Of a stretch of 64,000 nt of DNA, positions 32,140 to 58,005 are shown one piece after another. This DNA comes from Nitrospinota bacterium. GTDB lineage: Bacteria > Nitrospinota_A > UBA7883 > JACRLM01. The notes under the pieces are model-generated. The model made no database searches. It was not told the origin of the DNA and saw nothing but the letters and a program-made list of their open reading frames with translations. The position numbers and the translations under genes are program-made. Position 1 is the first letter of the stretch. Each line of letters starts with the position of its first letter. The stretch covers positions 1,985,501 through 2,049,500 of the forward strand of contig JACQXA010000004.1 in NCBI GenBank assembly GCA_016208975.1, written 5' to 3'.

Positions 32140-32183
32140 CGGCGGGTCCGGGCTTTTTGCGAAGCTCCGGGCCCGCCGTTTTT
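32140..32183 (+). terminator. Terminator between ctaD and ctaA
   Basis: CGGCGGGTCCGG (32140-32151) pairs with CCGGGCCCGCCG (32167-32178), with a single mismatch and a 15-base loop, followed by five T's. It probably lets the structural oxidase genes be expressed more strongly than the heme-synthesis genes downstream. Confidence 0.85.
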
Positions 32184-55299: not shown

Positions 55300-56437
55300 T
55301 TAAATATCCTCCAACTCCTCCACCGCATCTTCCCCGGCCTTGGCGGGGCCTTTTAGAAGATACCCCTCGATGAATTCATCCAGCGCCCCGTCCAGCACGG
55401 CGTTGACGTTGCCGGTTTCTATCCTCGTCCGCAGGTCTTTTACCATCTGGTATGGTTGCAGTACATAAGAGCGGATCTGGGATCCCCACTGGATGCCTTT
55501 CTTCTCGCCGGTGATGCCGTCCAGCCTCTGCCTGCGTTTTTCCTCTTCGATGGCGAACAGCTTGCCTTTTAGCACTTTCAGCGCGTAGGCCTTGTTCTTG
55601 TGCTGGCTCCGCTCGTTCTGGCAGGCCACCACGATGCCGCTGGGGATGTGGGTAATGCGCACAGCCGAGTCGGTGGTGTTTACGCTCTGCCCCCCGGCGC
55701 CGGAGGAACGGTAAACGTCCACCCTTATTTCTTCTTCCTTTATCACCACCTCGATGTCGTCTTCTATATCCGGCGTTACGGACACGGAGGTGAAAGAGGT
55801 ATGTCTGCGTTTGTTGGCGTCGAAAGGGGAGATGCGCACAAGCCTGTGCACCCCCGCCTCGGCTTTCATGTATCCATAGGCGTAGTCCCCCTGCACGATG
55901 AACGTGGCGGATTTAACGCCAGCCTCGTCTCCGGGGAGCAGGTCCACAATCTGTGTTTTGTATCCCCGCCTCTCGGCCCAGCGCAGGTACATGCGCATTA
56001 GCATCTCCGCCCAGTCCTGAGACTCGGTGCCTCCGGCGCCCGGATGGATTTCCACGATGGCGTTGTCCATGTCGTGCTCGCCGGAAAGCATTGCGGCGAT
56101 CTCCACCTTTTCGGTTTCCTTGGCCAGCAGGCTCGCGTCTTTACAGGTTTCGGCGAAAAGCTCCGGCTCGGCCTGGGGATCCACGATCTGGGCGAACTCG
56201 TCCAGGTCAGCAAGCCGTTTGGACAAAGCGTTAAACCCGTCGAGGGTCCTGATGATCGCGGCGCGCTTTTTAAGGAAAGGCTGGGCGGCTTCGGGCTTGT
56301 CCCAAAAACCGGGTGAGGCTATTTTCTTGTCGAGCGAGGCCAGTTCGGCGGTTTTGGATTCTATGTCAAAGATGACCTCGGAGCCTGGTGAGTTTGGCCC
56401 GGGTCTGTTCCAATAATGCGGAAAAATCCTCGTTCAT
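55300..56437 (-). CDS. prfB: Peptide chain release factor 2, expressed through a programmed +1 frameshift
   Basis: RF2 ends translation at UGA and UAA. The gene starts with an ATG at 56437 and reads 23 codons to an in-frame TGA at 56366-56368. It then continues in the +1 frame from GAC, giving about 378 residues. The main frame carries the GGQ loop SSGAGGQSVNTTDSAVRITH, with the catalytic Gln. The usual tripeptide determinant SPF is in VRISPFDANKR, and HPGAGGTESQDWAEML is also typical. Its ATG shares one base with the TAA of the upstream H1-tailed protein gene (TAATG), so translation is coupled. Confidence 0.93.
56365..56378 (-). promoter_or_regulatory. prfB autoregulatory frameshift site
   Basis: On the minus strand the bases GAGGT-CAT-CTT-TGA-C place a Shine-Dalgarno-like GAGGT three bases before the slippery CTT and the TGA stop. 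This matches the known bacterial RF2 site, in which low RF2 causes slippage past UGA. Confidence 0.9.
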
Positions 56438-57255
56438 TACTTCCTCTTCGATTTAGCTTTTTTAACGGCTGGCTTGGCGGCTGGTTTCCGGGCCACGGTT
56501 TTTTTCGCCGGTTTGGCTTTTTTGGCCACGGGTTTAGCTTTTGGCGCCGTCTTGGCCTTCGCCTTTTTTGCGGCTGGCTTGGCGGCTTTTTTCACTGGCT
56601 TGACAGCCTTAACCGGTTTAGAGGCGGCGGGCTTTTTAGGCTCCGGAGTAACCTTGCCGCCGGTTTTGGCCAGCGTGGCCTTTTTTATGGTTTCGTTGGC
56701 TTCCACCAAATCCAGCACGTGTTGCCTGGCGGATTTTTTGATGGATTCCTCAAGGACGTGGATCACCATTTTGCCTACTGGCGTGGCCACTCCAGGCACA
56801 TCAGGTATGGGAGCGCCCTTGGATATATAACCTTTAAGCCGCTTGGCCACCTCATCCATGGTGTACAGCTCGGAGTCTTTATATTTGTAAAGGAGCTTTA
56901 CATAATCCCGCTCCTTTAACTCCACATCCAACGATCCGTGGATGATGTTCTCCATTTTGGTTTCCGCGGGACGTTTGGGAAGCTTGTTTAAGATTTTTAT
57001 AACTTCGTTGAAGTATTTGGTTTTGCTTGCGTCCAGATTAGCCCTGGGCGGGAAAATGTCTTGGGGTATCTTGGAGCTTATCTCAAAAGCGTAGTCATTT
57101 CCATTGATGTCACAGGGGCTAACTTCGTAAGTTATACCCTTGATTAAGAAACGGTTGTCCTTTTTAGGGGTGAATTTCCCCCGGAACTCGGCGCGAACCT
57201 GCTCCAGACTTTTATTGATATGCTCAAGAAAAAGCTGGTTTTTTACCTCACCCAT
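56437..57255 (-). CDS. Hypothetical protein with histone H1-like Lys/Ala/Pro tail
   Basis: The 272-residue protein has a mixed alpha/beta N-terminal part (about 1-190), without a family I recognise. It is followed by a strongly basic tail of KKAAKPAAKKAKAK-type repeats (about 200-272) such as those in bacterial H1-like proteins. The tail suggests DNA or RNA binding. Its stop overlaps the prfB start by one base. The same kind of basic region appears in the DUF4912 protein, so the genome may carry several H1-tailed proteins. Confidence 0.75.
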   Translation of the reverse strand: MGEVKNQLFLEHINKSLEQVRAEFRGKFTPKKDNRFLIKGITYEVSPCDINGNDYAFEISSKIPQDIFPPRANLDASKTKYFNEVIKILNKLPKRPAETKMENIIHGSLDVELKERDYVKLLYKYKDSELYTMDEVAKRLKGYISKGAPIPDVPGVATPVGKMVIHVLEESIKKSARQHVLDLVEANETIKKATLAKTGGKVTPEPKKPAASKPVKAVKPVKKAAKPAAKKAKAKTAPKAKPVAKKAKPAKKTVARKPAAKPAVKKAKSKRK

Positions 57256-57462: not shown

Positions 57463-57502
57463 AAAAAAAAGGCGGTCTCGACGAGGAGTAGTCGAGACCG
57501 CC
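57463..57502 (-). terminator. Strong intrinsic terminator of the putative ncRNA
   Basis: GGCGGTCTCGAC pairs perfectly with GTCGAGACCGCC across an eight-base loop, with a T8 tract on the minus strand side. Confidence 0.9.
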
Positions 57503-57610
57503 AGGCCTTAAGTTAGCCGAAGAAGCCACTTCCAGAGTTTATATCCCTCTGGCTACAGAGGCCCGCAAGAGGATGAGGCGTCCGTCTTACGGAGTGCCGG
57601 CTTGCCATAC
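57463..57610 (-). ncRNA. Probable structured RNA with terminator, family unknown
   Basis: On the minus strand a transcript from about 57610 would contain several small hairpins, for example TCCGT/ACGGA and CCTCTG/CAGAGG. It ends in a 12-bp perfect terminator stem (57471-57482 with 57491-57502) and eight U's at 57463-57470. A TATGCT box at 57617-57622 could be its -10. It may be a small RNA or an attenuator 208 bases before the H1-tailed gene. It does not match 6S, SRP or any riboswitch pattern I know. Confidence 0.5.
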
Positions 57611-57622
57611 AAAATTAGCATA

Positions 57623-57930
57623 AGCCGTGCCAATGTTGATTCTTGCTATGATTGCCAATAAAAACAATGAGATAAGAAAAAATGCTATTCTCCTTTTCTT
57701 GGACAAATGTCTAGATAGAGTGCGGTGAATTTATTCAATCAACTTTGGTCTTTTGTAACCAACTGAATAATAATGGGTTTGTATATGCCACGAAAACGTG
57801 GCGCCACTGCCCGGTGCGGTGAAATCGTGGCGCCAATTGGACTGAAAATCTTAAACATCAACTTTCCGGGCTTAATGTTTTGCCCTAACCCTTGGAATTT
57901 GATAAAATTCAACCCTGTTTTTCCCGCGCC
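57623..57930. other. Gap before tRNA-Thr with small repeats
   Basis: No gene is seen. CGTGGCGCCA occurs twice (57797-57806 and 57826-57835), and GCCACG-AAAA-CGTGGC (57787-57802) forms a hairpin. The rest is AT-rich with no clear promoter. Confidence 0.45.
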
Positions 57931-58005
57931 GCCGGTGTAGCTCAGTGGTAGAGCAGCTGATTCGTAATCAGCAGGCCGTGAGTTCAATCCTCACCACCGG
58001 CTCCA
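57931..58005 (+). tRNA. tRNA-Thr (anticodon CGT)
   Basis: A complete 75-base cloverleaf with encoded CCA. Acceptor GCCGGTG/CACCGGC, anticodon stem GCTGA/TCAGC with loop TTCGTAA (anticodon CGT), and T arm GTGAG/CTCAC with TTCAATC are all paired. Confidence 0.96.

Follow-up and report, generated by a model that had tools for sequence, protein, structure and literature searches.

The Qrr small RNAs (sRNAs) are Hfq dependent. Qrr1 is controlled through two upstream activating sites (UASs) and sigma-54 (PMC10162802). Elsewhere, NfeR1 silences mRNAs through its CCUCCUCCC motifs (PMC10746234), and in RepG the seed is a C/U-rich terminator loop (PMC8295292). Here, we describe an sRNA of the phylum Nitrospinota that constitutes a new, previously unlisted family of a known kind. 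The phylum includes important marine nitrite oxidizers, and searches of the open-access literature, a scope outside which most subscription papers fall, found no sRNA described from it. The promoter, activator sites and seeds of the family are defined and open to direct testing, and any base-pairing sRNA of this lineage would have to act without Hfq.

A probable small RNA gene found in one order

The window (the whole stretch of DNA analyzed, 64 kb) supports a stand-alone, single-copy sRNA gene on the minus strand at 57463..57606, with a predicted transcript of ~144 nt. Its assignment draws on 11 homologues found by covariance model and on the position of its promoter, and both ends are predicted: the 5' end was set 12 nt downstream of the GC of the -12 element, and the 3' end at the T-run. 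The interval 57463-57622 proposed in an earlier note on this DNA thus holds the likely transcript, read from 57606 to 57463, but the control region reaches to ~57835, outside it. The same note had described a 12-bp perfect stem followed by T8 on the minus strand, and this is exact: the intrinsic terminator hairpin (57471..57502, minus) has 12 bp with 9 GC pairs and the loop TACTCCTC (UACUCCUC in the feature list), and its T8 tail occupies 57463..57470 (minus). A conserved GGNTAACTNARGGC box at 57505..57518 (minus), present in most members, lies directly before the terminator.

Across 11 genomes, 8 of the 12 terminator pairs have changed on both sides with pairing retained, and 96% of cells in the terminator alignment are paired; shuffles give 84%, and sliding the alignment leaves no more than 52%. 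Conserved pairing among relatives, one of the points on which the earlier note had staked its proposal, is therefore present. The stretch as a whole folds at -73.1 kcal/mol, compared to -50.5 +/- 3.9 kcal/mol in shuffles (z = -5.75), with most of the excess stability supplied by the terminator. The 5' part alone reaches z = -1.4 in the window, and consensus folding of the homologues yielded the terminator but no shared 5' structure. Over the 11 homologues the sequence of the 5' part varies, and its fold is modestly more stable than that of shuffles (mean z = -2.3); the 5' hairpin discussed below is predicted from single-sequence folds.

No Rfam family accounts for this RNA. Searching the 64-kb window with Rfam 15 at the gathering threshold returned tRNAs alone, and permissive thresholds again left the sRNA without a family match. 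The best permissive score was for ar7 (RF02342), which has a similar hairpin layout and a GC-rich terminator, but the sRNA scores 20.5 bits (E = 0.087) where the gathering score is 60. Searching relatives at the DNA level gave partial matches to the terminator region alone in two genomes, both with the same promoter, and a covariance model built on the RNA's final 61 nt (the 3' end) was therefore used instead. With this model, 11 of the order's 12 genomes (Nitrospinota) showed one copy each, and the other 12 genomes of the phylum examined showed none. The order member without the sRNA, G006, has a 1.7-Mb genome that is 99% complete. Elsewhere in the window, the terminator part of the model also matched positions 32141-32183 (plus strand) weakly (16.7 bits, E = 0.1); a further terminator-like hairpin is the probable cause.

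When 84,980 species genomes were scanned with a pattern strict enough to miss some known members, the matches were metagenome-assembled genomes deposited as Nitrospinota, as Nitrospinaceae and, in one case, as Nitrospirae, the last being the same contig as G005. The sole non-Nitrospinota match, in Pseudonocardia (L043), had no covariance-model match and was taken as chance. An independent small RNA, one of two possibilities raised by the earlier note, is thus favored by a conserved dedicated promoter, enhancer-like sites, a covarying terminator, single copy number and order-wide conservation. Promoter and conservation are strongly supported by the sequence comparisons; we infer that the gene is transcribed.

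Sigma-54 promoter and enhancer-like sites

A sigma-54 -24/-12 promoter, TTGGCACG-GCTTA-TGCT, lies at 57617..57633 (minus) and occupies the same place in all 11 homologues. This perfect element is expected by chance 0.02 times per 64-kb window, and the pattern without its leading T occurs at five sites in 2.97 Mb, the sRNA promoter being one of them. The looser form matches 6 times in total on the two strands of the window and is expected ~0.025 times per 530-nt stretch (with the window as background); each of the 11 copies has exactly one match, placed 150-182 nt ahead of the 3' end of the RNA. Because the RNA 5' end was itself predicted from the promoter, the exact distance between promoter and start is not independent. 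The possible -10 box suggested earlier did not hold up, as a sigma-70 scan gave no site able to start the sRNA. The gene rpoN was found in 22 of 24 genomes and in 10 of the 11 sRNA carriers, including the window's own genome; it was not detected in the carrier G002 (87% complete). We regard control by a sigma-54 promoter as very likely.

Further upstream, a proximal enhancer-like palindrome (TGGCGCCACGTTTTCGTGGCA; 57786..57806, minus), paired in 11 of 11 copies, is accompanied by a distal UAS-like site (TGGCGCCACGATTTCACCGCA; 57815..57835, minus) 29 bp away. Every copy (11/11) has two such sites (consensus GCYACG-N4-CGTRGC), spaced 29 +/- 1 bp from each other and lying ~190-230 bp ahead of the predicted sRNA start. 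The combined pattern occurs twice in the window against an expectation of 0.01, and the exact palindrome of the proximal site, GCYACGNNNNCGTRGC, occurs nowhere else in the genome. With one mismatch allowed, the genome holds 41 UAS-like sites compared to 13 for a reversed-pattern control, an excess that may in part be compositional. A wider UAS regulon may exist but could not be called, the single one-mismatch site inspected (C1:89491) falling inside a coding gene. The layout is that of enhancer sites for a sigma-54 activator, and an enhancer-binding protein (EBP) would be expected to bind there.

The window's genome contains 19 matches to the sigma-54 activator domain, and no EBP gene is adjacent to the sRNA. 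Several EBPs of G000, most clearly L051, L057, L061 and L072, have reciprocal best hits in G005 and no ortholog-like hit in the sRNA-less G006. In 10 of the 11 sRNA carriers, but not in G006, the L072 receiver domain has close relatives; these also occur in 7 of the 12 sRNA-less genomes outside the order, so that L072 is only a lead as the activator. The locus L120:3657-7848 (G000 C4:1132656-1136847) encodes an HDOD protein, a GAF-PAS histidine kinase and an NtrC-type activator in a row, an order apparently identical in G005 (L124). The NtrC-type activator of this row is a candidate activator of the sRNA.

Exposed loops and a proposed mechanism

Two loops of the predicted RNA carry C/U-rich motifs complementary to Shine-Dalgarno (SD) sequences (GGAG/GAGG). 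Seed 1 is the CCUCA of the 5' hairpin's apical loop (57574..57578, minus; unpaired probability 0.92), with CCUC present in 10 of 11 homologues. In six relatives the loop reads CCUCCUCA, largely unpaired, whereas several members have no more than CCUC and G002 has CCUU, which is short. Seed 2 is the CUCCUC of the terminator loop (57483..57490, minus), present in 11 of 11 homologues. Overall, CCTC/CTCC was counted 72 times compared to 20.2 +/- 4.4 in shuffles, a figure that includes terminator stems and that common descent and the CCTCG within those stems both inflate; the loop copies are mostly unpaired. The loop of a terminator is normally free to drift. Since CUCCUC has stayed constant inside a covarying stem, the terminator may well also serve in targeting.

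Hfq (PF17209), the one RNA chaperone searched for, was found in none of the 11 sRNA carriers. Among the 24 genomes of the phylum it was detected once, in the most distant one (G023). The lack of Hfq in any carrier, together with the anti-SD loops, leads us to propose an Hfq-independent translation repressor under sigma-54 control. An EBP bound at the two sites ~190-230 bp upstream would activate sigma-54 RNA polymerase. Once this activator is switched on, the ~144-nt RNA would be made, ending in the strong intrinsic terminator and exposing its C/U-rich seeds in the 5' hairpin loop (CCUC, or CCUCCUCA in the six relatives) and the terminator loop (CUCCUC). These seeds could then pair with GGAG/GAGG SD sequences of target mRNAs, blocking ribosome binding and thereby repressing the targets without Hfq. 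Potential targets would be common, since by a crude count 24 of 41 long open reading frames (ORFs) in the window have a start candidate preceded by an SD core.

We consider it probable that EBP-driven sigma-54 transcription yields a trans-acting, Hfq-independent sRNA repressing mRNAs at their ribosome binding sites. We give the anti-SD pairing somewhat better than an even chance; its effect would be repression. In a bolder version, the only clear genomic sites of one EBP would serve to drive a single sRNA, and this sRNA would lower the translation of many mRNAs by means of its two anti-SD loops, which would act redundantly and include that of the terminator, all without Hfq; this is speculative and we rate it as rather unlikely.

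Neighboring genes and alternative explanations

The downstream neighbor of the sRNA, outside its unit, encodes an H1-tailed protein (56437..57255, minus). The first 200 amino acids of this protein are conserved at 46-63% identity, most genomes of the order encode it beside prfB, and it has no Pfam match. The earlier note placed the terminator 208 bases before a gene coupled to prfB; the spacing from the T-run to the H1-tailed ORF is exactly 208 nt, and coupling is plausible because the ORF's TAA and the prfB ATG share one base (TAATG). At the start of prfB (window 56437-56350, minus), the ORF MNEDFSALLEQTRAKLTRLRGHL ends at CTT TGA C, a canonical +1 programmed frameshift, which is why the listed prfB ORF begins at an internal TTG. 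CTT TGA C is the classical self-regulating +1 frameshift site of RF2.

Given this arrangement, the sRNA might be the 5' part of a long transcript, a leader whose regulated terminator tunes RF2, as the earlier note had offered in proposing an attenuator for release factor expression. The same-strand position upstream of H1 in nine genomes (the window's and eight by homology) and the overlap of the H1 stop with the prfB start fit such a leader. Linkage to prfB does not extend to all members, however: G003 and G005 keep the sRNA, sigma-54 promoter and UASs with neither H1 nor prfB adjacent, a different gene on the same strand coming after the sRNA in G003 and a short stretch without H1 or prfB running from the sRNA to the contig end in G005. 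On this evidence, the sRNA has no obligatory link to prfB. Moreover, the terminator is strong in every member, no conserved alternative fold was found, the 208-nt spacer holds sigma-70-like sites of the H1-prfB pair's own, and prfB has its own frameshift control. We consider an attenuator highly improbable.

The upstream palindromes could instead be repressor operators, or sites for a regulator of the divergent tRNA-Thr(CGU) gene (57931..58005, plus), which flanks the sRNA on its other side in most relatives as well. They lie ~95-145 bp from that gene; yet their distance to the sigma-54 promoter and their 29-bp pairing are nearly fixed in 11 of 11 copies, as expected of EBP sites, and they are kept in G001, in whose contig no tRNA was found, which makes operators improbable. 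About as doubtful is a sigma-54-dependent RNA that titrates a protein instead of pairing with mRNA. CsrB-type RNAs titrate CsrA. The strong multi-hairpin structure and the conserved box before the terminator could likewise bind a protein, and known sigma-54 RNAs include the sponge CrcZ, which titrates Hfq (PMC4063720). Against titration, no Hfq was found in the carrier genomes, the motif that recurs is C/U-rich, neither GGA nor CA-rich, and there is just one conserved box. Finally, short ORFs of up to 36 codons in some members might make the RNA a small mRNA for a short peptide, but no ORF is common to the homologues in position or length and some run off the 3' end, leaving this the least credible of the alternatives.

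Comparison with known small RNAs

A base-pairing sRNA made from a sigma-54 promoter, the explanation preferred here, has several partial counterparts. Like NfeR1/alpha-r14 of Sinorhizobium (PMC10746234), the Nitrospinota sRNA is trans-encoded, with several hairpins and exposed anti-SD motifs, and redundant seeds and a block of translation initiation are proposed for it as well. NfeR1-type sRNAs have three hairpins each exposing the CCUCCUCCC motif, whereas the Nitrospinota sRNA lacks that motif and carries CCUC(CUC) in its 5' loop and CUCCUC in its terminator loop. NfeR1 is also activated by LsrB and repressed by NtrC, in contrast to the sigma-54 promoter found here, and the likeness need not mean a family relationship. 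The Qrr sRNAs of Vibrio (PMC10162802) share the sigma-54 promoter, the two upstream activator sites and the stand-alone gene; their LuxO site, however, has the sequence TTGCAWWWTGCAA and falls between -175 and -60, compared to GCYACG-N4-CGTRGC at approximately -190 to -230 in Nitrospinota, and the Nitrospinota sRNA gave no Rfam match to Qrr.

Pxr of Myxococcus (PMC5568312) is likewise a multi-stem-loop sRNA of a lineage-restricted family with an apparent sigma-54 promoter, but pxr adjoins the EBP gene nla19, whereas the Nitrospinota sRNA has no such neighbor. With RepG of Helicobacter, the likeness is in the use of a C/U-rich terminator loop for targeting. We know of no sigma-54 promoter for RepG. 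Its target is a G-repeat in the tlpB leader (PMC8295292), unlike the SD sequences proposed here. CJnc230/FlmE of Campylobacter (PMC11187230) is an RpoN-dependent sRNA with a putative anti-SD stretch, but it is processed from the flgE mRNA and presents CCUU in a single-stranded linker, whereas the Nitrospinota sRNA has a dedicated promoter and would present its seeds in loops.
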